42,629 nt of DNA from a virus: the IMG/VR virus record IMGVR_UViG_3300048834_000361, positions 1 to 42,629 of that record. One strand, given 5' to 3'. Shown in pieces: positions 24-25,207 of this stretch; positions within the stretch are counted from its first letter, which is position 1, and each line of letters starts with the position of its first letter. The position numbers and the translations under genes were made by a program. Below the pieces are notes generated by a model. It worked only from the letters and a program-made list of their open reading frames with translations. It was not told the origin of the DNA and did not search any database.

Positions 24-29
24 GTGGGG

Positions 30-824: not shown

Positions 825-839
825 GTCATGTGGGCACCG

Positions 840-1987: not shown

Positions 1988-2003
1988 GGCGCGGCAGCCT
2001 CCG

Positions 2004-4372: not shown

Positions 4373-4565
4373 GCCCGAGTGGATGGACGCAGCGCTCGCC
4401 AAGCATGTCAAGCCGGCCGATGTCGCAGCGGGTCGGTCGGACCGTGCCCGCCTGCAGGCGGCGTTGCGCAGCCCGCAGAAGACGATTCGTGATGCGGCCG
4501 TGGCGGAGATCCGCGAGCGCGCAGCGGCACGACCGGAACCGCGGAACGTCACGCGCCGGCCCTGA
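4356..4565 (+). CDS. Small basic alpha-helical protein before terminase
   Basis: 69 residues starting at an ATG with GGAGG 7 bases upstream. It overlaps the previous gene by 17 bases in another frame. It is Arg/Ala/Lys-rich and predicted largely helical (LAKHVKPADVAAG; RLQAALRSPQKTIRDAAVAEIRERAAAR). The stop TGA forms the first three bases of the TGATACCCTACGGGGTATG element on which the terminase begins. The position directly before the large terminase invites a small-terminase guess. However, it is shorter than usual and lacks a clear helix-turn-helix, and a better small-subunit candidate lies at 37937-38395. Confidence 0.65.
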   Translation: MNPKSRPEWMDAALAKHVKPADVAAGRSDRARLQAALRSPQKTIRDAAVAEIRERAAARPEPRNVTRRP

Positions 4566-4581
4566 TACCCTACGGGGTATG
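4565..4581 (+). promoter_or_regulatory. Start-associated palindrome, terminase
   Basis: ATACCC-TACG-GGGTAT (4565-4580) overlaps the upstream stop TGA (4563-4565) at one end and the terminase ATG (4579-4581) at the other. As RNA it is a 6-bp stem closed by C(UACG)G, a UNCG tetraloop. GGGG lies only one base from the ATG, too close to act as a Shine-Dalgarno. Confidence 0.8.
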
Positions 4582-6387
4582 CTTCTCAGCGCCGAAGACA
4601 TCGCCGCGCTTTCCCCTGAGGCGGCGGAAGAGTACGTACGGGACCTGAAGCGGGTCGCAGCGGTGCGGTCCCCGCTCGATCTGGCCGAGCTGCTAGAGCC
4701 GACCACGATCCGCTACCCGCACTCGGAACTCATCAACGACGCCGTGGTTGCGCTCGTCGAGTACCGCCTGTACCGCGACGGCCCAGGGCCTGAGGGCGTC
4801 TGGTTGTACCGTACCGAGCAGGACGGCGAGCTGCACCGGGCCGCCAGCGCGCCCGACATCCCCCCGAACGCGGTCGAGTTCTTCGCCGTCCACCCCGACG
4901 ACGTCGAGGCCCCCGAGAAGGTCGGGGCCCGGCGCGTCATCTTCCAGCTCGCCATCGCGCTCCCGCCCCGGCACGGCAAGAGCTTCATCGTGTCGCAGTG
5001 GACGCCGTTGTGGTACTGGCTCCGCTACCCGGACCACGACATCGCGCTGGCCACGTACTCCGACGACTTCGCCTCCAGCCAGTGGGGCACGTGGTTGCGG
5101 CGCGCCGTCCACGAGCACCGGGACTTCCTTGGCTACGCCCTCGAAGGCGGCGCCCGGGCCAGCTCCTCGCACTTCAAGCTGTCCGGTGACCCGCGCCCGG
5201 CCGCGAAGCTTTCCGAGCGCGACGAGTTCCACGAGGTGCGCCGCACCGGCGGCGGGGTCCGGTTGGTCGGCCGCGAGGGCGCGATCACCGGTACCGGGTT
5301 CCAGTTCGGGATCATCGACGACCCGTTCAAGTCCTTCGCGGACGCCAGTTCGCAGGCGAACCGGGAGGCCGCAGCGCGCTGGTACACCTCGACGTGGCGG
5401 TCCCGGAAGACCCGTATCCCGGGCCGTCGCTACCCGGTCGAGGTGATGATGTTCACGCGCTGGCACACCGACGATCTGACCGGCCGGTTCGTGCTCACCG
5501 AGAACGGAACGGTCCGGCCGGACTGGTACCTGCTGCACCTGCCCGCGATCTGCGACGACCCGACCAACGACCCGCTGCACCGCCCCGAGGGCGCCGCCCT
5601 GTGTCCGGCCATCAAGACCCGGGCCGAGCTGCTGCAGGAGCAGGCGCACGACCCGGTCGTGTTCGCTGCGCTGCAGCAGGGCCGTCCGACGGCCGGGGGC
5701 ACCGGGGCGTTCAACCGCATGATGCTGTACGAGAACAGCGACAAGATCTACGTCACGCTCGACGACCTCGGCGACTCCTGGTTCTCCGTGAACCCGGAGG
5801 AGTGCGTCCGGTTCGCCACGATGGACGTGGCCGCTACGAAGAACACGTGGTCCGACTGGACGGTCTTCTCGGCGTGGGACTTCCACATCCCCACCCAGAA
5901 CCTGTTCCTGGTGTGGCGGGAGCGGCAGCGCATCACGACCGACGTCCAGGCGGACTGGGTGCTGGATCTGTGCCGGGCTTGGAACGTGCGCCACGTGGGC
6001 GTGGAGCACAAGACGTTCGGCATCAACCTGGCGCACGCGGTGAACGCCCGCAACGCCGGGGTGATGATGGAGCTGATGAAGATGAAGGGCGACCACTTCA
6101 CGCGCGCCGCCCCGTACATCGAGATGTGCAAGGCCCGCAAGGTGTTCTTCCCGAAGCAGGCGCCGTGGATCTCGCTGTGGCTGGAGGAGCACGCAGGGTT
6201 CCCGCACGCCACCCGGCACGACGACCAGGTCGACACGGGTAGCTTCGCTGTCGAGTACGTGCGCCGGTACCCGTCGAAGGCGGCCACGCCGGACGCGGCA
6301 CCGGCCGAGGTGCCCCGCCACGAGCGCCGCTTCCAGACGGGTGGACGGCGGCGGGCGATCTGGCAGGGTAGACTCGGTTCCATCTGA
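4579..6387 (+). CDS. terL: Terminase large subunit
   Basis: 602 residues. The packaging motor ATPase and nuclease cuts concatemers and pumps DNA into the prohead through the portal. The ATPase Walker A is LPPRHGKS at residues 128-135 and Walker B is IIDD at about 245-248. The RNase H-like nuclease has an Asp in ATMDVAAT (D416), a middle VGVEHKTFG block, and a distal acidic HDDQVD (547-552). Length and motif order match complete large terminases. The start is the ATG inside the palindromic element; upstream in-frame codons would overlap the preceding gene. A Zn-finger coiled-coil protein and a one-TM protein lie between it and the portal. Confidence 0.95.
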   Translation: MLLSAEDIAALSPEAAEEYVRDLKRVAAVRSPLDLAELLEPTTIRYPHSELINDAVVALVEYRLYRDGPGPEGVWLYRTEQDGELHRAASAPDIPPNAVEFFAVHPDDVEAPEKVGARRVIFQLAIALPPRHGKSFIVSQWTPLWYWLRYPDHDIALATYSDDFASSQWGTWLRRAVHEHRDFLGYALEGGARASSSHFKLSGDPRPAAKLSERDEFHEVRRTGGGVRLVGREGAITGTGFQFGIIDDPFKSFADASSQANREAAARWYTSTWRSRKTRIPGRRYPVEVMMFTRWHTDDLTGRFVLTENGTVRPDWYLLHLPAICDDPTNDPLHRPEGAALCPAIKTRAELLQEQAHDPVVFAALQQGRPTAGGTGAFNRMMLYENSDKIYVTLDDLGDSWFSVNPEECVRFATMDVAATKNTWSDWTVFSAWDFHIPTQNLFLVWRERQRITTDVQADWVLDLCRAWNVRHVGVEHKTFGINLAHAVNARNAGVMMELMKMKGDHFTRAAPYIEMCKARKVFFPKQAPWISLWLEEHAGFPHATRHDDQVDTGSFAVEYVRRYPSKAATPDAAPAEVPRHERRFQTGGRRRAIWQGRLGSI

Positions 6388-6408
6388 TCGCTCACCCCGG
6401 AGGCCCCC

Positions 6409-6753
6409 ATGCCGATCCTAGAGATCCCCGACTTCGACAACTCGACCATGAACGGTGCGACGTGCTGCGTGTGCGGCGGGCTGGTGATGCCCGAGCACAA
6501 GGGCGCGCACCGGCTCGCGTGGATCGAGCACGAGGGCCACTTCGACGTGTGCAACGTCTGCGTCCTGGAGGCCGCGACGCAGCTCGGCGCTCTGTCGGTG
6601 CCCACGGCCCGCAAGCTGCGGGACGAGAACCGAGACCTGAAGCGCGACAAGGACCGGCTAGTCAAGCGGGTGCGGCAGCTCGAACAGCTCACCGACACGC
6701 TGTCCGCCGAGCTGGCGGAGCGCGCGGCGGAGACCGGGGAGGCGGTGGCATGA
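6409..6753 (+). CDS. Zinc-ribbon coiled-coil protein
   Basis: 114 residues starting after GGAGG spaced 5 bases from the ATG. Two CxxC pairs (C19/C22 and C48/C51) flank a His-rich middle (EHKGAH, EHEGH) and should bind one zinc. The C-terminal half, from about residue 65, is a charged heptad-like coiled coil (RDENRDLKRDKDRLVKRVRQ then EQLTDTLSAELAERA). It lies between terminase and portal and overlaps the next gene by four bases (ATGA). A packaging accessory or HNH-like partner of terminase is conceivable, but no HNH active-site residues are seen. Function unknown. Confidence 0.75.
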   Translation: MPILEIPDFDNSTMNGATCCVCGGLVMPEHKGAHRLAWIEHEGHFDVCNVCVLEAATQLGALSVPTARKLRDENRDLKRDKDRLVKRVRQLEQLTDTLSAELAERAAETGEAVA

Positions 6754-7004
6754 TCGTCCTCGCCGTGGTGCTCGGGTTCGTGTCGGTGGCACAGATCGTC
6801 GGCACGATCGTGCTGGTGAACCGGCTGCTCGATGAGCAGCGCCGGGTCCTGGCCGCGGCCGTGGCCCCGTCACAGTCCGTGGCGACGGCCGTGCTGACCG
6901 CCGGGGAGCCGGGGAAGCGAAGCAACAGTTCCGCGGTTGTTCCGGACGCGGACCCCCGCCCCCCGACCAGCTCCGACATCCCGCTCGGGCTGAGCGGGTT
7001 CTGA
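6750..7004 (+). CDS. Small single-pass membrane protein
   Basis: 84 residues. The ATG overlaps the previous stop (ATGA). An N-terminal hydrophobic helix (residues 2-25, IVLAVVLGFVSVAQIVGTIVLV) is followed by a basic turn and an Ala/Ser/Pro-rich tail that should be cytoplasmic or periplasmic. It is not a clear signal peptide, because no cleavage site is evident. The stop TGA is the first part of the TGATACCCTACGGGGTATG element of the portal gene. A membrane protein between terminase and portal is unusual; it might be a lysis accessory or a membrane anchor. Not recognised. Confidence 0.65.
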   Translation: MIVLAVVLGFVSVAQIVGTIVLVNRLLDEQRRVLAAAVAPSQSVATAVLTAGEPGKRSNSSAVVPDADPRPPTSSDIPLGLSGF

Positions 7005-7020
7005 TACCCTACGGGGTATG
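7004..7020 (+). promoter_or_regulatory. Start-associated palindrome, portal
   Basis: Identical 17-base copy of ATACCCTACGGGGTATG. The upstream stop TGA is at 7002-7004 and the portal ATG at 7018-7020, so stop, hairpin and start form one 19-base unit. Confidence 0.8.
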
Positions 7021-8976
7021 GCTGACAAGGACGCGCCCCGGGACTGGGTCCGCAATCGCTACGCCGAGGGGTACGAGCAGACCCGCGACGCGTGCCGCAA
7101 CTACTGGCTGAACACGAGCTTCCTGCTCGGTTACCAGTGGCTCACCTTCAACCGGGTGTCGAGCCGGATCGAGCCGATCCCCGAGGACGTGGACCGCATC
7201 CAGGCCACGATGAACCGGATGCGAACCAACGTGCGAGCGATCATCTCCACGTTCACGCAGCGCGAGCTGTCCTTCGAGGTGCTGCCGACGGCGGGCGACG
7301 ACGCGGCCCAGGCCGCCGCGAAGCTCGGCGAGGCGATTCTGGAGGAGACGCGCCGACTGCAGGACTGGGAGGTCAAGCGCGAGGCGTTCGGCTACACGGT
7401 CCTGAAGGGCGGCACTGGCGCGATCTGTGTGGAGTGGGACCCAGCTACCCAGTACCCGGTGGCGAACGTGCTGGCGATCCCCGAGTTCGTGGTCGAGCCC
7501 GGCACCCGCGACCCGGAGCGCGCCCGGTGGTGGATCAAGCTACAGCTCCTGCCGCCCGCCGAGGTGAAGGCCATGTTCCCGGAGGCGTTCAAGCTCCGCG
7601 ACCCGGCCGCTGACGCGAACACGGGGACGACGCAGTTCTCGCGGCGCCTGATGAAGGAGCACCAGCAGACCGACGTTCCCCTGACCGCGGTGTACACGTA
7701 CTACGAGCGCCCGAACCCGCTGTGCGAGGACGGGCGGATGTTGGTCGAGGTGAACGGTGAGATCGTCCAGTACGGCAAGTGGGAGTTCCCGTGGCGCGAC
7801 CGGCTGAACCTGTCGGTGGGCCGGGAGACGCTGATCGAGACCCTGTGGTACGGCGACACCATCCTGAACGACTGCCGTCCCGTACAGGTCGCCCTCAACC
7901 TGGCGTGGTCCAACCTGCTCGAACACCTCCGGTCCGTGGCCAACACCAGGATCGCCGTCCCGGCGTCCGCGATCCACATGCTCGATCAGCTCGGGGACGT
8001 GCCCGGTGAGGTGATGGTGTACCCGGACGGGTCCGCCCCTCCCGGGTTCATCCCGCCCCCGCAGATCCCGGGGTGGGTGCGGGAGATGCCGACCCAGCTC
8101 GCGAACCAGCTCGACGACCTGCTCCACGTCCACGACGTGTCCCGCGGCATCGCCCCCGCCAACATCGAGTCCGGGTACGGCATCTCGATCCTGGCGGAGA
8201 AGGACGCGAGCCCGATCGGCCGTCTCATCAAGGAGACGGCTCGCGTGTTCTCCGCCGTGGGCAGCATGTACCTGCAGCTCATCGAGCAGGAGTGCAGGAC
8301 CGAGCGCGAGTCCACCGTCTACATGAACTCGGGCCCACAGCACTTGAAGTGGAAGGGCTCGGACCTGATGGGCCAGACCGAGGCTCACGTCCCCCTCGAC
8401 GCCATCCTCCCCCGCTCGCGGGCGGCGCTGCAGGCGTTCGCCGACAAGGCGCTGGAGATGGGGCTGATCGAGGACGTCGTGCAGTACGCGCGCGTCGCCG
8501 AGCTGCCAGGCCACAAGGAGCTGCTCACGGTCGTGAACCAGCCGGTCGCCAAGGCCATCCGCGAGAACCACAAGATGGCGCTCAGCGAGGTGGTGCTGCC
8601 CGCGACGTTCGACCCGCACGACGTACACATCAAGGTGCACAACGAGTTCCGGATGTCGGAGCGCTACGAGCAGATGTCTGAGGCCGAGCAGCGAACGGTC
8701 GACGAGCACGTCAAGGCCCACGAGGTGATGGCCGCCGAGGAGGCGGGCCGTGCCGAGACGCAGAAGGCGCTGTCCCCGGCCCTGGCCGCCACGCCGAACG
8801 CGGACGGGCCGCTGCCCCCTGAGGTCATGGCTGCGCTGATGGCCGACGGGGGCGTGCCACCGTCCGGTGCTCCGGCCGAGACCACCCCTCTGCCGACAGC
8901 GGAGGAGATGATCGACCCGGGCCTGATGACCGACCAAATCATCAACGACATCCGGGCACTCGCCCCGGGCATGTAA
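7018..8976 (+). CDS. Portal protein (head-tail connector)
   Basis: 652 residues. It would form the dodecameric ring at one capsid vertex through which DNA enters and leaves. Support: size, position between terminase and scaffold, and portal-like sequence. The N-terminal region has an aromatic-rich helix (NYWLNTSFLLGYQWLTFN, about 25-42), then a segment with IQATMNRMRTNVRAIISTF typical of podoviral portals. Mid-protein there is SVGRETLIETLWYGDTILND and later the long helical VHDVSRGIAPANIESGYGIS. The C-terminal 100 residues are Ala/Glu/Pro-rich and probably lie inside the head. The start is the ATG inside the palindromic element, with no independent ribosome site visible. Confidence 0.9.
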   Translation: MADKDAPRDWVRNRYAEGYEQTRDACRNYWLNTSFLLGYQWLTFNRVSSRIEPIPEDVDRIQATMNRMRTNVRAIISTFTQRELSFEVLPTAGDDAAQAAAKLGEAILEETRRLQDWEVKREAFGYTVLKGGTGAICVEWDPATQYPVANVLAIPEFVVEPGTRDPERARWWIKLQLLPPAEVKAMFPEAFKLRDPAADANTGTTQFSRRLMKEHQQTDVPLTAVYTYYERPNPLCEDGRMLVEVNGEIVQYGKWEFPWRDRLNLSVGRETLIETLWYGDTILNDCRPVQVALNLAWSNLLEHLRSVANTRIAVPASAIHMLDQLGDVPGEVMVYPDGSAPPGFIPPPQIPGWVREMPTQLANQLDDLLHVHDVSRGIAPANIESGYGISILAEKDASPIGRLIKETARVFSAVGSMYLQLIEQECRTERESTVYMNSGPQHLKWKGSDLMGQTEAHVPLDAILPRSRAALQAFADKALEMGLIEDVVQYARVAELPGHKELLTVVNQPVAKAIRENHKMALSEVVLPATFDPHDVHIKVHNEFRMSERYEQMSEAEQRTVDEHVKAHEVMAAEEAGRAETQKALSPALAATPNADGPLPPEVMAALMADGGVPPSGAPAETTPLPTAEEMIDPGLMTDQIINDIRALAPGM

Positions 8977-9016
8977 CCTAGCCAGGAAACTGTTCCCCGA
9001 ACGGAAGCGTTACCGC

Positions 9017-9829
9017 ATGACAGACCCAACCCCTGCACCGCCAGCCGACGACATCCCCGAGGCGCTCCCCGAAGGCGACGCCTTCGACCGGGCGTACGTC
9101 GAGAAGCTCCGTGACCAGGCCGCCAAGTACCGGCTGGAGTCCTCGACGTACCGCAAGGCGTTCTCCGGGTACGCCCCCGAGGAGCGCGAGGCGCTCCTGG
9201 AGATGATCGAGACGCTCGACAAGGACCCCGAGCGCGGAGCAACCCAGTTCCGTGACGTGAGCTACCAGCTCCTCGGGGACGAGAAGTTCCATGCCGGTGC
9301 CCCGTGGGCGCAGGCCATCAAGCAGGAAGTGGAGGCCCACGTGGAAGAAGTCAAGGACCAGGAGACCGGCACGGTCAGCGCCGATGAGGTGGCGCGCATC
9401 GTGCAGGAGGCGCTCGAAGCGGACCGCGAGCAGCGCAAGCAGGAGGAGGCGATCTCCGGCGTGCGTGCTGAGGTGATCGCGGCCGGGTTCGAGCCCGGCT
9501 CCGAGGGCTACGCCCGCACCCTGTACGAGGCCGCGCACTTCACCGACGGCGACGTGGCGGCTGCGGCCGAGCGCGTGCGCCGGTTCCTGAGCGCGGCCGA
9601 GGCCGATGCCCCGGCGTCCGAGGAGACCACTGCTGCGGCAGAGGCAGCGGCAGACGCCGTCTCCGCCCCCGCTCCCGCTCCCGCCCCCGCCAAGTCCTGG
9701 CCGGTCACCGCGACCGCGGGCGGCGCCGGGGCCAGCACGGCCCCGGTGGACGAGACCCCCAAGAGCTTCTCCGACGCGCGGGCACGGATGCGGGCGCGCC
9801 TCCGGCAGACCGCGCAGCCGGGACAGTAG
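9017..9829 (+). CDS. Scaffolding protein
   Basis: 270 residues between portal and capsid genes, the usual place of the scaffold that templates prohead assembly and then leaves. The sequence is highly charged and helical with many Glu, Lys and Ala (EEREALLEMIETLDKD; AIKQEVEAHVEEVKDQETG), and the last 80 residues are low-complexity Ala/Pro/Glu ending in a basic helix (FSDARARMRARLRQTAQ). A basic C-terminal helix that binds coat protein is known in P22 and phi29-type scaffolds. GGAAG lies about 9 bases before the ATG. A strong terminator follows, so scaffold and capsid can be expressed at different levels. Confidence 0.85.
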   Translation: MTDPTPAPPADDIPEALPEGDAFDRAYVEKLRDQAAKYRLESSTYRKAFSGYAPEEREALLEMIETLDKDPERGATQFRDVSYQLLGDEKFHAGAPWAQAIKQEVEAHVEEVKDQETGTVSADEVARIVQEALEADREQRKQEEAISGVRAEVIAAGFEPGSEGYARTLYEAAHFTDGDVAAAAERVRRFLSAAEADAPASEETTAAAEAAADAVSAPAPAPAPAKSWPVTATAGGAGASTAPVDETPKSFSDARARMRARLRQTAQPGQ

Positions 9830-9850
9830 CCGCACGCTACCTGCGGACCG

Positions 9851-9878
9851 GGCCCCCCGCTTCGGCGGGGGGCCTTTT
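9851..9878 (+). terminator. Strong rho-independent terminator with UUCG loop
   Basis: GGCCCCCCGC (9851-9860), loop TTCG, perfect 10-bp complement (9865-9874), then TTTT (9875-9878). The UUCG tetraloop adds stability. It lies 21 bases after the scaffold stop and before the promoter/operator region of the capsid gene. Confidence 0.9.
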
Positions 9879-9898
9879 CACGTACGGGGCAAGGATAC

Positions 9899-9927
9899 TT
9901 GCGTCACGCAACTATTGTGTGATACAA
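9899..9927 (+). promoter_or_regulatory. Second TTG-N7-CAA doublet, capsid promoter region
   Basis: TTGCGTCACGCAA (9899-9911) is a perfect palindrome. After CTA follows TTG-N7-CAA again (9915-9927). Spacing and the central CAACTATTG match 1521-1549. A possible promoter overlaps it: TTGCGT (9899), 18-base spacer, TACAAG (9923-9928). It sits between the terminator and the capsid ATG at 10028, so capsid is probably transcribed from its own start here. Confidence 0.65.
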
Positions 9928-10027
9928 GTAACTGAGGCCAGCGACCGGGAGTCGCGGCCGGTAAGTGACGGGCCGGGTGCCCGGAGCGGAAGGAACCCAC
10001 GAATCCACCGCCTAGGAGGCACCCATC

Positions 10028-11245
10028 ATGGCTCAGAGCCTTACCAACGCTGATTCCGCCCTCAAGGAGGACTACCAGCCGGTAGTCCGGGAGCAGCTCA
10101 ACAACGAGAACATGCTTCTCGCTCAGGTCGAGAAGAACACCGAGGACATCGAGGGCCGTCGCGCGGTCCTCTCGGTCCACCTGCGGCGCTCCGGCGGCGT
10201 TGGTGCCCGGTCCGAGGGTGACAACCTGCCCACGGCCGGTCACCAGGGCTACGCCGAGGAGCGCATCTCGGTCAAGCACCAGTACGCCCGCATCGAGATC
10301 TCGGGCCCGGCCATCCGGGCGTCGAAGTCCGACGCAGGGTCGTTCGAACGGCTGCTCGACTCGGAGATGCGGCGCATCAAGGACGACATCAGTCGTGACC
10401 TGAACCGCCAGTGCTACAACGGCCTGGAGGGCACCATCGCCCAGTGCGGCACCACGAGCGCGGCAACGACCGTCGTCCTCGCGTCCACCACCACGGACGT
10501 GCAGATGCGGCAGTTCCACGTCGGAATGCTCGTCGACATCGGCACCCTCGCTGACCCGGACGCAGATGTGGCCGGGGCGGAGATCACCGCGGTCGACCGC
10601 ACCAACAAGACCATCACGATCGGGTCCGCGATCACCACCAACAGCTCGGACTACGTCACCCGTGCGGGCAGCAAGACCGGCTCCGGTACCACCAAGGAGA
10701 TCATCGGTCTGCAGGCCATCATCGACAGCTCGGGCTCGCTGTTCAACATCGACCCCAGCTCCTACCCGGAGTGGGCGTCGGTCGAGCTGAGCAACGGCGG
10801 CACCACGCGCGCCTTCACCGACGTGCTCCTGGAGCGCGCCGTGGACGACGTGGCGCAGGAGACCGGCAACGTCATCCCGAACCTGGTCATCACCAGCTTC
10901 GGTGTGCGCCGGAACTTCGCCGCACAGCTCAAGAGCCAGCGGCGCTACGAGGACAACGTCGACCTGGTCGGCGGGTTCAAGGGCACGGGCGTCAACGTGG
11001 GCAACACCTCGCTGGCGCTCATCGCCGAGCGGGACTGCCCCGAGAACACCGCGTTCGGTGTCAACACCCAGCACCTGATCGAGTTCGTTCAGGCGGACTG
11101 GCAGTGGGCCGACGACGACGGTGCGGTGCTCAGCCGGGTCTCGAACAAGGACGCCTGGGAGGCGTTCCTGTACAAGGACCACGTGCTGGCCACGGACCGG
11201 CGCAACGCGCACTTCAAGATCACCGACCTGGCGACCACGGGCTGA
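10028..11245 (+). CDS. Major capsid protein
   Basis: 405 residues, strong ribosome site GGAGG 9-13 bases before the ATG. It follows the scaffold and is followed by a decoration-like gene. An N-terminal arm (LKEDYQPVVREQLNNENMLL) leads into an HK97-type E-loop-like segment with GRRAVLSVHLRRSGGVGAR, then the spine helix (FERLLDSEMRRIKDDISRDL). The middle has a Thr/Val-rich insertion (about residues 150-260), and the C-terminal part is the axial domain ending in HFKITDLATTG. The HK97 fold is inferred from order and pattern, not from a conserved catalytic motif. Separate terminator and promoter elements upstream fit the high copy number needed. Confidence 0.88.
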   Translation: MAQSLTNADSALKEDYQPVVREQLNNENMLLAQVEKNTEDIEGRRAVLSVHLRRSGGVGARSEGDNLPTAGHQGYAEERISVKHQYARIEISGPAIRASKSDAGSFERLLDSEMRRIKDDISRDLNRQCYNGLEGTIAQCGTTSAATTVVLASTTTDVQMRQFHVGMLVDIGTLADPDADVAGAEITAVDRTNKTITIGSAITTNSSDYVTRAGSKTGSGTTKEIIGLQAIIDSSGSLFNIDPSSYPEWASVELSNGGTTRAFTDVLLERAVDDVAQETGNVIPNLVITSFGVRRNFAAQLKSQRRYEDNVDLVGGFKGTGVNVGNTSLALIAERDCPENTAFGVNTQHLIEFVQADWQWADDDGAVLSRVSNKDAWEAFLYKDHVLATDRRNAHFKITDLATTG

Positions 11246-11256
11246 TAGGGGAGATC

Positions 11257-11574
11257 ATGGCACTCACCTTCACCGAGTCCACCCGCTTCGTCGTGGGCGA
11301 CCGAGTCGCGGTCAGCGGCAAGGTCACCTTCGACAGCAGCTACCCCACCGGGGGCGAGGCGGTCACGGCCAGCCTGTTCGGGCTGCCCGGTGGCAGCATC
11401 AGCCACATCGTCCTGGGCGTCCCGGACGTCGTCACCAAGAACGTGCGCTGGGATCGTGCAAACAGCAAGCTCCTGGTCGTCGTCGAGGACGGCACGTCGG
11501 GCATCGAAGCCGAGGCGGCCAACGCCTCGGACCAGAGCGCCGTGGACGTTGAGGTTCTCGTCTTCGGGAAGTAG
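11257..11574 (+). CDS. Probable head decoration protein
   Basis: 105 residues directly after the capsid gene, with GGGGAG 3-8 bases before the ATG. It is rich in Val, Ser, Thr and Gly with alternating hydrophobic residues, predicted all-beta. Visible segments are RFVVGDRVAVSGKVTFDSSY near the N-terminus and LLVVVEDGTSGIEAE near residue 75. Small beta proteins placed right after capsid are often capsid-stabilising decoration proteins, which is the inferred role. The alternative is a head completion protein. A GC-rich hairpin follows (11605-11629), so transcription may partly end here. Confidence 0.7.
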   Translation: MALTFTESTRFVVGDRVAVSGKVTFDSSYPTGGEAVTASLFGLPGGSISHIVLGVPDVVTKNVRWDRANSKLLVVVEDGTSGIEAEAANASDQSAVDVEVLVFGK

Positions 11575-11604
11575 ACTCCAGACCGTCGGGGAAACGGGGA
11601 GAGA

Positions 11605-11629
11605 GGGCCGGGCCTGTAGTGCCCGGCCC
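11605..11629 (+). terminator. GC-rich hairpin after decoration gene
   Basis: GGGCCGGGC (11605-11613), 7-base loop, GCCCGGCCC (11621-11629). Flanking GGGGAAACGGG and CCCGTTCCC can lengthen the stem imperfectly. There is no U-tract, so it may attenuate transcription or protect the capsid mRNA 3' end instead of fully terminating. Confidence 0.55.
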
Positions 11630-11647
11630 TCACCCGTTCCCGCGGTG

Positions 11648-11664
11648 ATACCCTGCAGGGTATG
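11648..11664 (+). promoter_or_regulatory. Start-associated palindrome, 11662 gene
   Basis: ATACCCTGCAGGGTAT is a perfect 16-bp palindrome overlapping the ATG at 11662-11664. TGA (11646-11648) precedes as in other copies, although the upstream gene ended 72 bases earlier. The loop is TGCA instead of TACG. Confidence 0.75.
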
Positions 11665-12093
11665 AAGCCGGTAGCCCCCACCACCGACCCCCGCAAGCTG
11701 CTCCTCGGTCGTGAGACGGTCGGTGAGCACATCCAGTCCATGCTCCGTAACGGCGTTCCAGAGATCGGGTGGGAGGGCGACCTCTACCTGACCCTGGCGT
11801 ACAACAAGCTGGAAGACAAGTGGGAGGTCTGGGAGACCCGCCCCGACGGCCGCGCCGTGCTGGTCATGGTTCGCCCGGCCGCCACGCTCGGAGACGCGCA
11901 CTCCGCCGCTCTGCAGCTCTGCGCTCGTCTCCGGGACGGGGACCTACGGCGTAAGTCGATCACCCAGATCCTCGACGAGGTCGACTCCCACAACGACCGG
12001 GTGCGCGTCGAGCGCGAGAAGAAGTACCGGGACCACTGGGGCGCCGCCTACGAGCGACTGTCGTGGGCGCTCCAGAAGGACGGGGCGGTCTGA
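11662..12093 (+). CDS. Hypothetical virion-region protein, 143 aa
   Basis: Not recognised. The start is the ATG in the palindromic element; no Shine-Dalgarno lies at normal distance. The first half contains DLYLTLAYNKLEDKWEVWET, suggesting antiparallel strands, and the second half is helical and charged (SITQILDEVDSHNDRVRVER then EKKYRDHWGAAYERLSWAL). It lies between decoration and adaptor genes, where podoviruses encode head completion or internal core proteins. It has one Cys, no membrane segment. Its stop TGA is the beginning of the next start-associated element. Confidence 0.75.
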   Translation: MKPVAPTTDPRKLLLGRETVGEHIQSMLRNGVPEIGWEGDLYLTLAYNKLEDKWEVWETRPDGRAVLVMVRPAATLGDAHSAALQLCARLRDGDLRRKSITQILDEVDSHNDRVRVEREKKYRDHWGAAYERLSWALQKDGAV

Positions 12094-12109
12094 TACCCTA
12101 CGGGGTATG
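12093..12109 (+). promoter_or_regulatory. Start-associated palindrome, 12107 gene
   Basis: Exact ATACCCTACGGGGTATG copy joining the stop of the 11662 gene (TGA 12091-12093) to the ATG at 12107-12109. Confidence 0.8.
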
Positions 12110-12909: not shown

Positions 12910-12911
12910 CC

Positions 12912-14663: not shown

Positions 14664-15298
14664 TCCCTGACCTGTTTCTCGGTCAGCGGCTATCGCACCT
14701 GTTCCCCGTGGAACAACAGGCACAGGCCGCTGACGTCGAGCGCACCATTGAAGACCGCATCAACTACCCGACCCAACGGTTCGTCATCACCTGCACGTCC
14801 ACTACCCGCCCTACCAGTGCTCGGGCCGGGGACCGCATCTACGAAACGGACACCGGCAACGAGCTGACCTGGAACGGCACGGCCTGGCTACCGCCCGACA
14901 ACCTACCGTGGGGGATCATCGGCAAGGCGTCGATCACGGCAGGGCAGACGTTCACGACCCTGGCCGATGTGACAGGTCTGTCGGTCACCTGGACCGCTGT
15001 GGGTGGACGACAGTACCGCGTTCAGGTCCACGGCTTGCTTCGCTCCTCGGTCGTCAACGACATCGCGCAGCTCCTCATCGCCGACGGCAGCAACAACACG
15101 ATCTCCGTTGGGCAGGTAGCGTGCCTCGCCACGACCTTCGCTTTCCAGACAAGCTGCTTCGCGGTCGTCACGCCCAGCGCCGGATCGGTTACCTACAAGG
15201 TGCGCTGCGTGCGGTCCAACGGATCTGGAACCGTGACGCTGGACGCTGCCGCCGCCTACCCGGCTTGGCTCCTCGTGGAGGACATCGGGCCTGCGTGA
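14660..15298 (+). CDS. Tail appendage or fibre-tip protein
   Basis: 212 residues; the ATG overlaps the nozzle stop (ATGA). The N-terminal part has LFLGQRLSHLFPVEQQAQAA and a DRINYPTQRFVITCTSTTRP stretch followed by GDRIYETDTGNELTWNGTAW, a pattern common where phage tail proteins end an attachment domain. The C-terminal 130 residues form a jelly-roll-like beta domain (SVTWTAVGGRQYRVQVHGLL; ISVGQVACLATTF; YPAWLLVEDIG), seen at the tips of actinophage tail proteins. It probably attaches to the nozzle and contacts the host. The stop TGA starts the next start-associated element. Confidence 0.7.
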   Translation: MIPDLFLGQRLSHLFPVEQQAQAADVERTIEDRINYPTQRFVITCTSTTRPTSARAGDRIYETDTGNELTWNGTAWLPPDNLPWGIIGKASITAGQTFTTLADVTGLSVTWTAVGGRQYRVQVHGLLRSSVVNDIAQLLIADGSNNTISVGQVACLATTFAFQTSCFAVVTPSAGSVTYKVRCVRSNGSGTVTLDAAAAYPAWLLVEDIGPA

Positions 15299-15314
15299 TA
15301 CCCTACGGGGTATG
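15298..15314 (+). promoter_or_regulatory. Start-associated palindrome, 15312 gene
   Basis: Exact ATACCCTACGGGGTATG copy linking the stop of the 14660 gene (TGA 15296-15298) to the ATG at 15312-15314. Confidence 0.8.
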
Positions 15315-16984: not shown

Positions 16985-16987
16985 GTC

Positions 16988-19900
16988 ATGGCTGACCTGA
17001 TCGAACAGCTCCGGGAGCGTCGCCGAGCGGCGATCGTCGGCGCCCCGCTGCCCGTCCAGATGCCTGCGGTCCCTGCCGGGTCCGTTCCGGCCGGGGGCAA
17101 CATGATCGAGGCGCTCCGGGAGCGGCGCCGCCTACAGCCCGTCACGGCCCCTCCGGCGCCCGCCCTGCCCTCGGAGGCGGAGGTCATGGCGTCCTTCGAG
17201 AAGCTCGGGCAGGAAGACCCGCTAGAGCGCGCTGACTGGCGTAACATCGCCCGTGCCGTCGTGCAGCTCAAGTCCTCGCCGGACGTCGGCGAGGAGGAAC
17301 GCAAGCTCGCTGAGCAGATCATGCAGGCGTACGGCGACCAGCTCCGCCCGCACGTCGACCTCGCTGCCGGTGAAGACTGGTGGGAGCAGAACTACGTCGA
17401 GCCCCCGGAGCCCGGCGGGCTCAAGGGCGTGCTCAAGGACATCATGGACGTCCCCGGGGTCACCGGCCTACTGGAGACCCTGGACCGCCCGTCCCAGGCC
17501 ATGCTCAACACCATCGCGGGCGTGCGCGCAGCGATCGACCAGGACGACGGCATCAGCGCCGGAGACGCGCTCCGGTACGCCGGGTCGTCGCTGGGCAACA
17601 CGTTCAACTGGGAGGAGGACTGGGCCGAGCGGACCCTCACCACCTCCGAGGGCGAGCAGATCAGCTTCGACATCGACGACGACGGCACTCTCAACTTCCG
17701 CGAGGCGCTCGGACGGGACCCGGACGACGGCGGGCTGCTGGCCGGGGCCTTCGACCTCGCGGGCGTCATCCTCACCGACCCGACCACCTACTTCGGCGTC
17801 GGGCTCGCTGGCCGCGCCATGCGGGGGCTCAAGCTCCTGGAGACCGCTGGCGGGCAGACGGGCAAGGCGCTCGCCCAGGCCATCCGCGTCGGCGGTTGGA
17901 ACTCGCTCGACGACGTCTCCCAGGAATTCGTCGAGACCACCATCCGGTCGCAGCTCAACGAGAGCGCCCGGCGCCTCATCGCGCTCCGCGACTTGCCCGA
18001 CGCGCAGCGCCGCACCGCCTTACGCGCCCTCGGCCGATCCGACGACGCGCTCCGCCGTTCCGCCGAGCGCAGCGTCGACCGCGCCCTCGGCGGGATTCGG
18101 CGCGGAGGGCAGCGAGGGCTCCGGTTCTTCGGCTCCACCATCCCCGGCACCCCGTACATCTGGGACGTCATGGAGCGCGCCGGGATCACCGGCCGTGTCC
18201 GGTACCGGCAGGTGCCCGCGGCGCAGGCCGCAGCCGACGGTGTCGAGGAGATCGCCGACCTCACCGACAACGACCTCATCGACATCGTCGAGACCGCTGC
18301 CCGCGACCCACACCCGTACCTGCGGGCCGGGGGCGAGGACCAGCTCGACCCGGACGTCCTCTACTCGACGACGCCCACCCCCGACCAGCTCCGCATCCGG
18401 TTCGAGGAGGACCTTCCCGAGTTCCTTCGTCCCGGGGTCATCGAACAGGAGCAGTTGGAGATCCTGTTCCCGGACGCCACCCCGGTGCAGCTCAGCATGG
18501 CGTTCCCGGAGATCGTCCCCCCGCCCGGGCCCGAGCTTCTGCCGCCCGCCTCCGCCACGCCGAACATCCCGCGGGGCGCCGGACGGTTCGAGGCCGCCCA
18601 GGCCGCGGTGCGGTCCAACAACGCCCGGCGTGGGGCCCAGACCAGGGCCGGCGCTGGGGCCGTGCCGTTCGAGACGGGCACGGTCGCCGACGACTCGGTC
18701 GCTGATCTCGTCGACCGGCCCTGGACCCCGGACCCCGAGGTCGCCGCCCGCCGGTTGACCGGGCAGGACCTGCGCGGCCTGGACCGGGCGATCCCGCTGA
18801 ACCACCCGCGCGCCCGCAACATCACCCGCTCCGAGAAGATGCTCATTCTGGAGCTGCAGGACCGCGGCCTGGAGCCCTTCTACGACGAGGTGTCCGACAC
18901 CTTCAAGGTGCGCGCCGAGTCCGGCCGTACCTACGCCTTCGCTCGCCGCTCCGAGGAGCCCCGCCTTCGTGAGCACAGCATCTACCTCACCCCCGAGGGG
19001 GTCGGCTCCCGGCTGCCGGTGCCGGTCGACCAGGCTGCGCTCCCGCCGCGCTTCACGCTCAACCAGGGAGCGGCCCGTCAGCTCGACATGGACGAGGCCG
19101 TCGCTGCGCAGCCCCGCCCGCGACCCGACTTCGAGGCCGGAGCGGCGCAGGCGGACGAGCTGCCCTTCGAGGGCACCGTGCCCGGCACCAACTTCGACCC
19201 AGACAACTGGGTTCCGGACGAGGCCATCGACGAACTCGTGACGCCCGTGCAGGGCAGCCTGTTCGACGACATGAGCGAGCAGACGCAGCGCTTGTTCGAC
19301 CCTGACACCATCGCCGAGGACCTGAGCACGAAGGTCGCCGAGCGTATTCCAAGATCCGAGTGGGTTCTGGAACTGTCCGACCCAGGGCTCATCGACCGGC
19401 TGCTCGACACCCGGGTGATGATGGCGCTCCGCTACGCGCTCGTGCCTCGCGCCCGGCTGCGCACGGCCCTGGCCCGGCTCTCGAAGGCGGACGTGCAGGA
19501 GTTCGAGCGTACCGTCGCCACCAACATCGCGCGCCACGAGCGGGAGAGCGTGGACGCGCTGCTCCGCCTCGAAGGCAAGCTGACCCGCAAGGCGGTCCGC
19601 GAGGCCGGTAGCCGGGAAGAACTCCTCCGCACGCTCAACACGGCGCTCGCCAACCCCGGGCAGTGGGACGAGATCTACCAGGCTGCCGGTCCGCGGGTCC
19701 GGACCGCACTTGACACGGTCCGCCAGATCCGCGAGGAGATCTACGAGGCGACGATCCGGGGCGGGGCTGACCCGAAGAAGCTCGCCAAGGTCAAGGACGC
19801 CTACATCCCGCGCGTCGTGTCCGCCAGGGCTCGGCGCCAACTCAACGACATCCTGCGCCGGGGCGGCGAACCGGCCCAGCGCATCCGCGAGGCGTTCAAC

Positions 19901-22594
19901 GCCGAGGGTATCGAGATCGCGGACCGCATCGGGCGCGACGCCATCGACACCACCCAGTCCGGGTTCCTCCTCAAGCGCGGCCTTGCGCAAGACGTCAACG
20001 ACCTGTTCGAGGTGAACCGGCAGGCAGGGGCGTGGCTCCGTGAGACGGCCGGAGTCGACATCGATGACCTGTTCGAGACCGACGTCCTGCGGGCGTTCGC
20101 CATCCGCCACCGTGCCGCCATGGAGGCGGCCATGCGCGCTGACCTCGTCGGATCGCTCGCCGACATCACCGTGGGCGACGGGTTCCGCGCCGCCTACATC
20201 GTGCCCAAGGAGATCGCTGACGCTCCCGGCTACCTCCGCTCGATGGGCGTGTCGCCCGGTGCCTACGACGTGTGGATGACCACGCCGGACGGTACCCGCC
20301 ACTACGTCCGCCACGAGATGGTCGAGGAGATCCAGAACTCCGCCAGGTTCCTCGACAACCAGCAGAACCTCGGGAAGTTCCGCCGGTTCATCGACGACTG
20401 GAACGGCCTGTGGGCCAGCTACGCCACGGTGCCGCTGATCGGCTTCGGGTTCCACGCCCGCAACATGACCGGCAACATCTTCAACATGATGCTCGCCGGG
20501 TTCAACGATCCGCGCACGTTCGCCGATGCGTTCCGCATTCAGAAAGCGGGCAGCGCCATTCGCGAGCAGATGGCGGAGACCGGCGAGGACTTCCTCACCG
20601 CGGCCCGCACGCTCGGGTTCAACGAGGACATCACCAAGATCATCCTCGAAGCCCGCGACATGGGCGTCTACTCCGGCGGTAAGGTCGGTGACATCTTCAC
20701 CGAGGCCCGCCTCGGCGAGACCCGGTCCCGGGCGGACCGGTTCAACCCGATCTCGCAGCGGAACTTCATCATCTCGTCCGGTCGCGGGTTCGGTGAGGCG
20801 ATCGAGAACAACGCCCGCCTCGCCCTGTACATCGACGGCATCCGCAAGGGCATGACCCCCGAGGTAGCAGCCGAGCGGGTCCGCAAGTACCTGTTCGACT
20901 ACTCGGACCTCACGAACTTCGAGCGCAACAACCTTCGTGTCCTGAGCAGGTTCTATACGTTTATGCGCAAGAACACCGCCCTCCAGTTCGCCACCCTGGC
21001 CATGTACCCGGGCCGCGTGCTGAACGCTCAGCGCATCGCCGACTTCTTCGTCGAGGAGTTCTTCCCGGTCGCCGAGGACGCCGAGAACTACCTGCTGCCC
21101 GGATACGCTCAGGAGCTTCGAGACACCGCCGTGCGCACCGTGCCGGGCGGCAGCGAGATGCGGGCCATCATCAACGTGGACACGCCGCTCGTAGGCGCCT
21201 TCCGCGCTGTGAACCAGCTCGGCTCGCTGGCCTCCACCATCCCCCTGCTGGACAAGGCTCTGCCCCCGGTGCTCGCTTTCGGCGACCGCCAGGAGCGGTT
21301 CGGAAACGCGGTCTCGCTGTTCTCCGGGGGGCCGGCGACCGCGGTCAACTATCTGATGGGCGGCACGTTCGGCCGGGACCCGTTCAGCATGGCTCGTCTC
21401 GACGATTCGGCCAGCTCCCAGTGGGTGCGGTTCGCGAACATCTTCGCCCCGGTCGTTGGCAAGGTGCAGCGCGAGGGCGAGAAGTTCGGGGCGTGGGGCG
21501 ACGACCAGGGCGACGCGGCGGTGCGCTTGATGAACGCGCTCACCGGCCTGTACACCCTGCAGCTCACCCCCGAGGGGCAGGACCGCACCCGCAACGCCAT
21601 CGCCTCCGAGCTGTACGACGCCATCCGCCAGCTCCGAGACGCGGGAGTGGACGTTCCTACCTTCGAGGAGCTGCAGCAGGCCGGGACGCTGGAGCTTCAG
21701 TCGCGGGCCCTGGAGGCGATCGTCTACGGCGAGCTGCCCGAAGACGTGACTCGGGCGATGGAAGGGATCATCGGCGCTGACGCGATGGAGGCCGGTGGCC
21801 TGATCCGCCAGACGCCTCTCGCCGAGAGCGAGGAGTTGACCGAGGCCGACATCGTACGGATGCGTGACGACTGGATCTTCGCCATCGAGCGGCAGCGCGC
21901 CCAGCAGGGCCTGCCCCCGCTGTCCGAGCAGGAGCGGGCGAACCTGGTGCTGCTCGCGCCGTGGGCGCCCACGAACACCGACGTCGAGCAGTGGGGCGCG
22001 CAGCCCGGGCAGCTCCCGTCGCAGAACAGGTTCCTGCCGAGCGCCGAGAGCCAGGGCTTGAGCAACGAGCAGGTCGAGCAGCGCATCGACCTGATCGCTG
22101 CGGGGTTCGGGTTGAGCGCTGACCGCATCCGCCAGATTCGGCCGGTGCTCCCCGAGGCGCAGCAGATCCTCAACGAGGGGCTGGCCGCTGGCGTGTCGCC
22201 TTCGGAGATCGGGGCCTACCTCACGCAGCGCCTGTCCCGTGCCGAGCGCGGGATCATCTTCGGGGCCGACTCGCTGGAGCGCCTGCGGGACGGTACCTAC
22301 ACTCCGGAGGACTACCGTCGGGCGCAGAACGCTGCGTGGGAGCGGGCCGCCGAGCTGACCGTCATCATGCAGCTCTTCCTCGGGCGCCAGCCCACGCAGG
22401 AGGAGATCGCCCAGTACACCCTGTGGAACGAGCTGACGCTCACCGAGCAGGAGATCGTCGGCTTGCAGCGCCGGCCCAAGTTCCCGACCACACAGGACAT
22501 CCGGTCCGATGCGCAGGTCGCGTCCGACGCCCGCAACATGCTAGGCACGGTGCTGACCGGGGTGACGTCGGGCCCCTCACTGGTAGACGACTAA
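16988..22594 (+). CDS. Giant internal virion (ejection) protein
   Basis: 1,868 residues, the largest gene, last in the late operon, as T7 gp16 is among core proteins. It starts with two copies of IExLRERRR (residues 5-13 and about 39-47). An EF-hand loop DIDDDGTLNFRE is at residues 228-239. Residues 240-290 include hydrophobic stretches. The middle (450-750) is Pro/Ala/acidic-rich, probably flexible. The C-terminal third has conserved blocks FRRFIDDWNGLWASYATVPL with GFHARNMTGN, and KYLFDYSDLTNFERNNLRVL then FYTFMRKN, resembling a module of large phage polyvalent and ejection proteins. I see no lytic transglycosylase motif. Likely ejected to span the host envelope. Confidence 0.82.
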   Translation: MADLIEQLRERRRAAIVGAPLPVQMPAVPAGSVPAGGNMIEALRERRRLQPVTAPPAPALPSEAEVMASFEKLGQEDPLERADWRNIARAVVQLKSSPDVGEEERKLAEQIMQAYGDQLRPHVDLAAGEDWWEQNYVEPPEPGGLKGVLKDIMDVPGVTGLLETLDRPSQAMLNTIAGVRAAIDQDDGISAGDALRYAGSSLGNTFNWEEDWAERTLTTSEGEQISFDIDDDGTLNFREALGRDPDDGGLLAGAFDLAGVILTDPTTYFGVGLAGRAMRGLKLLETAGGQTGKALAQAIRVGGWNSLDDVSQEFVETTIRSQLNESARRLIALRDLPDAQRRTALRALGRSDDALRRSAERSVDRALGGIRRGGQRGLRFFGSTIPGTPYIWDVMERAGITGRVRYRQVPAAQAAADGVEEIADLTDNDLIDIVETAARDPHPYLRAGGEDQLDPDVLYSTTPTPDQLRIRFEEDLPEFLRPGVIEQEQLEILFPDATPVQLSMAFPEIVPPPGPELLPPASATPNIPRGAGRFEAAQAAVRSNNARRGAQTRAGAGAVPFETGTVADDSVADLVDRPWTPDPEVAARRLTGQDLRGLDRAIPLNHPRARNITRSEKMLILELQDRGLEPFYDEVSDTFKVRAESGRTYAFARRSEEPRLREHSIYLTPEGVGSRLPVPVDQAALPPRFTLNQGAARQLDMDEAVAAQPRPRPDFEAGAAQADELPFEGTVPGTNFDPDNWVPDEAIDELVTPVQGSLFDDMSEQTQRLFDPDTIAEDLSTKVAERIPRSEWVLELSDPGLIDRLLDTRVMMALRYALVPRARLRTALARLSKADVQEFERTVATNIARHERESVDALLRLEGKLTRKAVREAGSREELLRTLNTALANPGQWDEIYQAAGPRVRTALDTVRQIREEIYEATIRGGADPKKLAKVKDAYIPRVVSARARRQLNDILRRGGEPAQRIREAFNAEGIEIADRIGRDAIDTTQSGFLLKRGLAQDVNDLFEVNRQAGAWLRETAGVDIDDLFETDVLRAFAIRHRAAMEAAMRADLVGSLADITVGDGFRAAYIVPKEIADAPGYLRSMGVSPGAYDVWMTTPDGTRHYVRHEMVEEIQNSARFLDNQQNLGKFRRFIDDWNGLWASYATVPLIGFGFHARNMTGNIFNMMLAGFNDPRTFADAFRIQKAGSAIREQMAETGEDFLTAARTLGFNEDITKIILEARDMGVYSGGKVGDIFTEARLGETRSRADRFNPISQRNFIISSGRGFGEAIENNARLALYIDGIRKGMTPEVAAERVRKYLFDYSDLTNFERNNLRVLSRFYTFMRKNTALQFATLAMYPGRVLNAQRIADFFVEEFFPVAEDAENYLLPGYAQELRDTAVRTVPGGSEMRAIINVDTPLVGAFRAVNQLGSLASTIPLLDKALPPVLAFGDRQERFGNAVSLFSGGPATAVNYLMGGTFGRDPFSMARLDDSASSQWVRFANIFAPVVGKVQREGEKFGAWGDDQGDAAVRLMNALTGLYTLQLTPEGQDRTRNAIASELYDAIRQLRDAGVDVPTFEELQQAGTLELQSRALEAIVYGELPEDVTRAMEGIIGADAMEAGGLIRQTPLAESEELTEADIVRMRDDWIFAIERQRAQQGLPPLSEQERANLVLLAPWAPTNTDVEQWGAQPGQLPSQNRFLPSAESQGLSNEQVEQRIDLIAAGFGLSADRIRQIRPVLPEAQQILNEGLAAGVSPSEIGAYLTQRLSRAERGIIFGADSLERLRDGTYTPEDYRRAQNAAWERAAELTVIMQLFLGRQPTQEEIAQYTLWNELTLTEQEIVGLQRRPKFPTTQDIRSDAQVASDARNMLGTVLTGVTSGPSLVDD

Positions 22595-22617: not shown

Positions 22618-22621
22618 CTGG

Positions 22622-22732: not shown

Positions 22733-22733
22733 G

Positions 22734-22973: not shown

Positions 22974-22989
22974 GGGGCAGCCTTTCAGG

Positions 22990-24051: not shown

Positions 24052-24275
24052 CGAGATTCCTCTCTGGCCCACGTGACGTGGTCACGTAGGTGGTCATCGA
24101 ACTTGGTGCTCAGCACACGTACGTCGTCGTGGACGGCACGCAGAAGGGCCCTGCCCTCCCCGTGCTGCTCGCTGTTCTCCTTCCGGAGCTTGTAGAGCTG
24201 CACGGCACCGGCAACGAGGGCGGCGCTCAGGGGCGCCAGTACCGTCGCGATGCCCAGGATCAGTGCTTCGGCCAT
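24048..24275 (-). CDS. One-TM lysis-cassette protein
   Basis: 75 residues. The N-terminal 27 form a membrane helix (ALILGIATVLAPLSAALVAG), followed by a charged amphipathic tail with HDDVRVLSTKFDDHLRDHV, probably a coiled coil. This topology is like small holins or holin partners (compare XhlA-type proteins in reverse order). It is located directly after the endolysin, with the stop overlapping the TTG of the phosphoesterase. No strong Shine-Dalgarno before the ATG. Together with the two-TM protein at 22734 it makes a plausible two-component membrane lysis system. Confidence 0.7.
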   Translation of the reverse strand: MAEALILGIATVLAPLSAALVAGAVQLYKLRKENSEQHGEGRALLRAVHDDVRVLSTKFDDHLRDHVTWAREESR

Positions 24276-24278
24276 CGG

Positions 24279-25193
24279 TCAATGGGCCCTGTCGTTCAGC
24301 TCGTCGATGAGCTTCCAGGTGCGCGGCCCGACCACCCCATCATCGACGAGGTGGAAGAACGCCTGCACGGTGCGGACAGCGAGGTGCGTCTTCGGGCCGA
24401 ACCCGGACTCCTCGACCTTGAGGAAGCGCTGCAGGGCGGACACCCACGGCGCGTACCGGGCCGGGGCTCCCTGCCGCAGCACGGGCCGGAACGGGGGGAA
24501 CAGCACCTTCGAGGGGGCCGGGGCTTTCGATGCGGCAGCGGCCTGCAGGTGAGCGCCAAGCTCGTGCGGCTTGACCCGACCGGCCAGGAGCTGCTCGGTC
24601 CAGTAGTCCCAGCCCTGCGGGTCCGGGTCATGGTTCCATGCGTCTCGGTACGCTTGCAGCACCATCGCTCGGGCGATGGCGGTGAAGTCGACGGGCGCGT
24701 TCTCGGCCCTGTGGTTGATGTCGTTGAGGTCGAGGATGGTGTCGCTTCCGGGGCACGCGGTCTTCGAGCGCTGACGGTGCCAGCGCAGCGGCAGCCCGGT
24801 CTCCAGCCGGAGGCGGTACAGCGCCTCTGCCTCGGCGGGGAACAGCCCGTCACGGGACCGGTCGCCGAGCACGAGCACGGTGAGCGCGCGGCGGGTCGAC
24901 GGCCACTCGGAGATCCCGTCACGGGCAGCGATCAGCCCGCCGTCGGGGGCGAGGACCCGGTTGTAGAAGATGTCCCGCCACCCGTTGGTCTTCCGGTGCG
25001 TGTTGTAGATGTTGCGGACGCGCTGCGTCGCCTCGGTCAGGGACTGCGGCGGACGGCCTCCGCCCTCGTGGTGGACTTCGATGTAGGTCGCGGACAGGGA
25101 CGGGATACCGCGGGCAGGGTCGAGCCCTCCCCACGCCCACAGCTTCCGAGGGTAGTCCTCGGGTGCCGGACGGCCATTCAGCGTGGTAGTCAT
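24279..25193 (-). CDS. Endolysin: amidase, DUF4214-like, peptidoglycan-binding
   Basis: 304 residues. Residues about 30-150 are an amidase_2/PGRP domain: VHHEGGG holds the first zinc His (H42), and WHRQRSKTACPG supplies H139 and C147. It should cut the bond between N-acetylmuramate and L-alanine. Residues about 166-225 are a DUF4214-like module (LQAYRDAWNHDPDPQGWDYW then TEQLLAGRVKPHELG). Residues about 245-300 are a PG_binding_1 domain (GVVGPRTW). It has no signal peptide, so export depends on holin-like neighbours. The ATG is embedded in the same palindrome as late rightward genes, suggesting late control although it lies downstream of early genes on the same strand. Confidence 0.92.
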   Translation of the reverse strand: MTTTLNGRPAPEDYPRKLWAWGGLDPARGIPSLSATYIEVHHEGGGRPPQSLTEATQRVRNIYNTHRKTNGWRDIFYNRVLAPDGGLIAARDGISEWPSTRRALTVLVLGDRSRDGLFPAEAEALYRLRLETGLPLRWHRQRSKTACPGSDTILDLNDINHRAENAPVDFTAIARAMVLQAYRDAWNHDPDPQGWDYWTEQLLAGRVKPHELGAHLQAAAASKAPAPSKVLFPPFRPVLRQGAPARYAPWVSALQRFLKVEESGFGPKTHLAVRTVQAFFHLVDDGVVGPRTWKLIDELNDRAH

Positions 25194-25207
25194 ACCCCTC
25201 AGGGTAC
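25191..25207 (-). promoter_or_regulatory. Start-associated palindrome, endolysin
   Basis: On the minus strand GTACCCTGAGGGGTATG: arms TACCC/GGGTA, loop TGAG. The ATG of the endolysin is its end. The stop TGA of the primase-helicase gene lies inside the loop. The only copy on the minus strand, and on a late gene. Confidence 0.75.

Follow-up and report, generated by a model that had tools for sequence, protein, structure and literature searches.

A palindrome on the start codons of phage late genes: predicted leaderless promoters overlapped by a putative host-type CsoR/CstR operator

Introduction

What is the role of a palindrome that recurs almost unchanged along one phage genome and whose 3' edge is formed, time after time, by the start codon of a late gene? 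The question is raised by IMG/VR virus record IMGVR_UViG_3300048834_000361, of which positions 1 to 42,629 were analysed; this whole stretch of 42,629 nucleotides is referred to here as the window. It represents an actinobacterial podovirus-like phage of 68% GC, with genes for terminase, portal, major capsid protein and endolysin and a block of DNA-replication genes that runs leftward. The element is ATACCC-N4-GGGTAT, and in each of its start-codon copies the ATG forms the 3' edge. The timing of late-gene expression in actinobacterial phages is mostly unknown, and the start-linked repeats found in these phages are unexplained. An original prediction, made from the sequence alone, read this element as a hairpin that hides the start codon and acts as a translational or transcriptional switch of late genes. 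We conclude that each copy is very probably a leaderless late promoter, with transcription predicted to start on the A of the ATG, and we favor, with moderate confidence, a reading of the overlapping palindrome as a putative operator of the CsoR/CstR type, persulfide subclass.

Results

A repeat on the start codons of late genes

Exact copies of ATACCC-N4-GGGTAT lie on the plus strand at 4565, 7004, 11648, 12093 and 15298, and a copy with one mismatch (GTACCC-TGAG-GGGTAT) occupies 25192-25207 on the minus strand. The loops of these six start-codon copies are TACG in four and TGCA and TGAG in one each. Matches with at most two mismatches number seven, compared with 0.48 expected, and none of 100 shuffles reaches seven. 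The shorter form TACCC-N4-GGGTA occurs exactly seven times in the window; one of these, at 1610-1623, was not listed originally and has no start codon, and it may be a chance occurrence in the C-rich tract that surrounds it. A further start-codon copy, at 1718, is degenerate: it retains TGCTACCCT, and its 3' half is GCGGGC, shorter by one base. The copies and their predicted roles are as follows.

1610..1623, plus strand: TACCCCCCGGGGTA, palindrome with neither promoter nor start codon, between divergent genes ahead of the late operon
1703..1720, plus strand: TGCTACCCT-GCGGGC-ATG, predicted leaderless start, with extended -10, of an 89-amino acid gene, the first of the late genes; palindrome degenerate
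4563..4581, plus strand: TGATACCCTACGGGGTATG, predicted leaderless promoter with operator-like palindrome at the start of the terminase large subunit gene
7002..7020, plus strand: TGATACCCTACGGGGTATG, predicted promoter-palindrome element at the start of the portal protein gene
11646..11664, plus strand: TGATACCCTGCAGGGTATG, predicted promoter-palindrome element at the start of a 143-amino acid gene of unknown function
12091..12109, plus strand: TGATACCCTACGGGGTATG, predicted promoter-palindrome element at the start of a 56-amino acid gene
15296..15314, plus strand: TGATACCCTACGGGGTATG, predicted promoter-palindrome element at the start of the gene for a 193-amino acid DUF4214 protein
25191..25209, minus strand: TGGTACCCTGAGGGGTATG, predicted promoter-palindrome element at the endolysin start, with the stop codon of the upstream primase gene inside the loop

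The repeat described in the original prediction is real, comprising six 16-mers with no or one mismatch, far above chance, together with the degenerate copy at 1718, and the coordinates and loops given for it hold. A leading TGA ends the upstream open reading frame at 4563, 7002, 12091 and 15296, and the TGA at 11646 is not the stop of the upstream gene, both as described. The leading TGA assigned to the minus-strand copy is in error, as this copy begins with TGG and the TGA of the primase stop lies within the loop (25201-25199). The gene marked by this copy was correctly named as the endolysin (phrog_1493, E 1e-12); the copy separates this late gene from the upstream DNA-replication genes, a boundary at which an independent late promoter is needed. 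The broader claim, of a start-codon-linked control element that marks late genes on both strands and is copied as a unit, also stands.

The marked genes have the signature of leaderless transcripts

Common to all seven start-codon copies, including that at 1718, is TGnTACCCT, which has the form of an extended -10 box (TGn-TAnnnT) and ends 6-7 nucleotides upstream of the ATG, a distance that puts the A of the ATG at +1. Both strands of the 42.6 kb hold seven TGnTACCCT sites, and at 7/7 the ATG of a gene follows after 6-7 nucleotides; 0.45 sites are expected from first-order Markov simulations, and 0.015 sites with an ATG so placed. With a simple gene model of the window, TAnnnT is found at -14 to -11 of 7/7 marked genes, preceded by TG in every case, versus 0/33 of the other genes. 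At 1703, 11646 and 25209 the TG lies outside any stop codon, with a probability from base frequencies of about 0.055 at each site and ~2e-4 for all three, so the use of stop codons cannot explain it. Mean Shine-Dalgarno pairing is -2.8 kcal/mol for the marked genes versus -8.1 kcal/mol for the others (P=0.0025); the original statement that these genes have no Shine-Dalgarno sequence is upheld insofar as pairing is weak, and overstated for two of the seven, which are intermediate (-5 and -6 kcal/mol).

In bacteria, and in Actinobacteria foremost, TANNNT about 12 bp before the start codon marks leaderless genes (PMC3160421), and a -10 hexamer and a Shine-Dalgarno sequence that exclude one another are the signature of such genes (PMC4633059); Mycobacterium smegmatis translates from leaderless ATG and GTG starts no less well than from leadered ones (PMC3160421, PMC4633059). 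The phage copies share with leaderless actinobacterial genes the distance of the -10 box and an ATG at the predicted start point (PMC3160421, PMC4633059; for a parallel in Deinococcus-Thermus, PMC12340547). They likewise are without a good Shine-Dalgarno sequence, and the TG in front makes the -10 extended. They differ from usual leaderless promoters, in which the middle three bases of the -10 box vary, in being a near-identical 19-bp unit, overlapped by a palindrome, on the late genes of a single phage. The promoter assignment is likely and draws on several independent sequence tests, and from the spacing we infer the start site. Between the two kinds of switch originally offered, support falls on the transcriptional one, given the extended -10 before every marked ATG. 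We note that TGCTATACT-CCGAGAC-GTG at 33129-33145 on the minus strand, before a 173-amino acid gene (32611-33129), is another leaderless-type start with a host-like -10.

Phages with related capsid proteins keep the promoter half

No DNA-level relative of the window phage was found in the phage collection. Its capsid protein matches those of Microbacterium phage Shocker, Cellulosimicrobium phage DS1 and the Arthrobacter Jasmine-group phages at 28-36% identity. Shocker has TGCTACCCT-N6-ATG at 550, 707 and 3582, with the 3' halves AACCGC, AGACGC and AACGCC and no GGGTA arm; the 3' halves have thus diverged, and it is the promoter half that is kept and the second arm that is not. Four further Shocker late genes have TAGGAT or TAAAGT at -12/-13 with the ATG 6-7 nucleotides on, and the arrangement in Jasmine and Brad, TTGACA-N17-TACGGT-N6-ATG, puts a full sigma-70-type promoter in this leaderless position. 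The motif is absent from relatives (GC 0.40-0.44) in which the capsid protein is ~50% identical. Separately, TACCCTA occurs 25 times in Shocker, mostly upstream of genes and often paired at variable spacing, with some copies preceding genes led by a Shine-Dalgarno sequence, and may perhaps be a regulatory repeat of its own.

Folding and covariation argue against an RNA hairpin

The original reading, in which an RNA hairpin on the start codon switches the translation of late genes, at least where transcripts read through from upstream promoters, accounts for the perfect 6-bp arms of five copies and for the C(UACG)G tetraloop of four, and for six copies the minimum-energy or centroid fold contains the hairpin, with the AU of the AUG inside it. 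Two of the checks proposed for it nevertheless came out against it: fold energies are no better than those of shuffles (z -1.17 to +1.67), and an alignment of 19 phage, relative and host copies contains 0 compensatory pairs, its 5' side being near-invariant and its 3' side diverging in the phage relatives. Two of the loops, TGCA and TGAG, fall outside the UNCG type, Shocker retains the 5' half alone, and at one host site (L138:7067, described below) the element lies off the start codon of any gene. The constant bases that a hairpin does not need, the TG set one base ahead of TACCCT even at sites where it serves no stop codon, are those of the extended -10, and the hairpin leaves this TG unexplained. 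With transcription starting on the ATG, moreover, the hairpin would be absent from the gene's own mRNA. We reject this reading as very improbable. A search of Rfam returned no family.

A matching element in actinobacterial chromosomes

In Streptomyces coelicolor the persulfide-sensing repressor ScCsoR controls csoR itself together with genes for a persulfide dioxygenase, a rhodanese and tauE, and the promoters that it binds contain a 16-nucleotide box, ATACCn6GGTAT (PMC7533328). Five of the phage copies match this box exactly and one with a single change; the copy at 1718 does not match. An exact 19-mer, identical to a phage copy at 19/19 bases, is present in an actinobacterial metagenome-assembled genome (L105), and 198 genomes of the class of L105 contain 58 matches to TGNTACCCTN7ATG. 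Among these, 11 carry the full GGGTATG arm, where about 0.2 would be expected, and most of the full-arm matches precede the same small cysteine-rich gene. In L105, L138 and L145 the site lies on the start codon of this small gene, csoR is next (PF02583, E 5e-25), and the small gene is divergent from a persulfide dioxygenase of metallo-lactamase/rhodanese type; in L138 a TauE sulfite exporter gene is downstream. By inspection, the host csoR product has two Cys and no His at the copper position.

The class yields 30 starts of the small gene, 28 of them ATG, and 17 carry ATACCC-TNNN-GGGTAT on the ATG; across these 17 palindromes the arms are constant save for the outermost base in one, and the first base of the loop is always T. 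Several of the remaining starts are instead preceded by a Shine-Dalgarno site. A second host site, L138:7067, has the element away from any real start codon, so its function would be independent of one. The small cysteine-rich protein itself (MCK.TTCKKCG.P.W.GCG.HVEQVLG.VP..RC.C) has no Pfam match and shares one operon with a CstR-like csoR, and it is a candidate, so far unannotated, for membership of the persulfide regulon.

The phage palindrome thus has the 16-bp form, the TAC-X8-GTA spacing and the position within a promoter known from the persulfide CsoR/CstR regulon of S. coelicolor (PMC7533328), and the host versions additionally share the flanking csoR, rhodanese-domain persulfide dioxygenase and tauE genes. 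The phage copies, unlike that regulon, precede structural and lysis genes and come without a CsoR gene; the likeness to the operator is one of sequence. Of the two, the host element stands at promoters of this regulon (csoR, persulfide dioxygenase, rhodanese and tauE genes), and gene content places the phage element outside it. Type 2 operators of the copper-sensing CsoR of Streptomyces lividans also have a TAC...GTA inverted repeat around G tracts, with a spacing of TAC-X9-GTA (PMC3902906) as against TAC-X8-GTA in the phage.

Comparison with other start-linked repeats

Start-associated sequences (SAS) of the cluster K mycobacteriophages and cluster EF Microbacterium phages are likewise short conserved repeats before start codons (PMC3203893, PMC7302621). 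They lack symmetry and coincide with the ribosome-binding site (GGGATAGGAGCCC in cluster K, GGGAAAGGACCCC in cluster EF), whereas the motif described here is symmetric and has no Shine-Dalgarno sequence. Its membership of the SAS was rejected on the grounds of this symmetry and of weak 16S pairing, in agreement with the original distinction from the cluster K sequences. We note that GAAAGGACCCCC occurs on the minus strand directly before leftward starts, exactly at 27691-27702, 36519-36530 and 40165-40176 and with one mismatch at 39001-39012; it is nearly the cluster EF GGGAAAGGACCCC (PMC7302621) and is the real SAS analogue in the window. Short palindromes are also repeated near starts in mycobacteriophages of cluster O and Microbacterium phages of cluster EG (GATCAACCNNGGTTGATC; PMC7302621); in cluster EG these inverted repeats precede the start codon by 14-22 bp, are unrelated in sequence and have no stated overlap with a -10 box. 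TGNTACCCTNNNGGGTATG is found in 73 viral contigs; outside the contigs of this phage itself these are single copies, mostly in contigs of lower GC and many of them within coding DNA. The number of matches is near the chance expectation, and a widespread phage element was rejected.

Other features of the window

The assignments of three of the marked genes, and a hairpin, are as follows.

4579..6387, plus strand: terminase large subunit gene (phrog_38, E 6e-60)
7018..8976, plus strand: portal protein gene (phrog_156, E 5e-25)
24279..25193, minus strand: endolysin gene (phrog_1493, E 1e-12; PG_binding_1)
11603..11632, plus strand: strong hairpin without a T-run (z -4.3 for 11585-11650), missed by the terminator scan, which looks for T-runs

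The last of these lies directly before the predicted promoter of the gene at 11662 and, in a putative terminator role, may end the capsid transcript. A good candidate for an intrinsic terminator, with a 13-bp GC-rich stem and a T-rich tail, is located at 795-824 on the minus strand and would serve a leftward unit. A WhiB-like small protein is encoded at 39601-39834 on the minus strand (PF02467, E 6e-8), outside the selected gene models. Near the right end, between 41774 and 42131, GACTAGGG is directly repeated in five copies, with GAAA after three of them; this DNA is apparently non-coding, and the copies are possible control or replication sites.

Discussion

The best explanation of the element, and one that we hold to be somewhat better than even, is that leaderless late promoters are overlapped by a host-type CsoR/CstR operator and would hence be repressible by a host protein. 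The extended -10, TGnTACCCT, would be read by the host sigma-A-type RNA polymerase, and the leaderless mRNA, beginning with the A of the ATG, would be translated without a Shine-Dalgarno sequence, as is common in Actinobacteria. ATACCC-N4-GGGTAT, overlapping both the -10 and the start point, would serve as a double-stranded DNA operator of the CsoR/CstR (DUF156) type with TAC-X8-GTA spacing, so that a bound host repressor would cover both and keep the late genes off early in infection. Derepression might follow from phage replication, in which every new genome brings six operators and could titrate the repressor, or from a shift in persulfide or redox state as the cell dies. The operator part is probable on the strength of its identity to the published consensus and of the host element, and the phage element may be either derived from a host promoter-operator or convergent with it. 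The fullest form of the idea, in which the promoter-operator of a host persulfide repressor served as the basis for most late promoters of a lytic phage, such that a stress sensor of the host silences structural and lysis genes until it is titrated or reactive sulfur rises, is considerably more tentative.

Several observations weigh against an operator for a host repressor. The window contains no CsoR-family gene (PF02583), and a host protein is needed; no relatives of the capsid protein were found among 395 genomes of the class with the host element, a search that had no positive control; and the closest phages infect Micrococcales, while the exact host element is present in only 12/396 genomes of the phylum. 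The extended -10 TGATACCCT, combined with any palindrome having a 4-nucleotide loop, necessarily produces ATACCn6GGTAT, and convergence is thus possible. The late promoter at 1718 has no palindrome. On the promoter side, no conserved -35 box is seen at the marked promoters; a scan of 1-19999 with the Escherichia coli consensus promoter gave no match, as expected for boxes without a -35.

Two further explanations were weighed. Were the copies leaderless late promoters alone, with a palindrome that has no regulatory role, a compact strong host promoter would have been taken over or converged upon, and timing would come from an activator, from replication or from a WhiB-like protein. All of the leaderless promoter evidence fits this equally, the Shocker sites and the 1718 copy function, if at all, without a palindrome, and the window scan finds no CsoR gene in the phage. 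We nonetheless consider it unlikely, since GGGT(A) is kept in 6/7 copies despite loops that vary (TACG, TGCA, TGAG), which suggests that the second arm, for which a -10 box alone has no need, is under selection, and since the arms match the published operator (PMC7533328).

The palindrome could instead be the operator of a phage-coded protein, repressor or activator, such as the WhiB-like protein or a regulator that went unrecognised. A symmetric DNA site that overlaps the -10 and the start point is compatible with this, and the phage has several unassigned proteins besides the WhiB-like one. However, no helix-turn-helix or CsoR protein was recognised among the phage proteins scanned, and the same element is present in host chromosomes without the phage. 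WhiB proteins work with sigma-A on the -35 side, and such a palindrome is not a known target of theirs; WhiB was rejected as the binder, the protein being present and positive evidence for its binding lacking. We regard an operator for a phage-coded protein as improbable, and return to leaderless late promoters overlapped by a putative host-type operator as the preferred account. We found no literature that links CsoR/CstR to phage late promoters, in a search that fell short of most subscription journals.

The combination of a leaderless promoter with a persulfide operator, as read here, is a candidate link between the sulfur and redox state of the host and the late expression of its phage. 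It also suggests that other start-linked repeats in actinobacterial phages be re-read as promoters. The likeness to a host stress operator is the interesting part of the finding, and it is directly testable.

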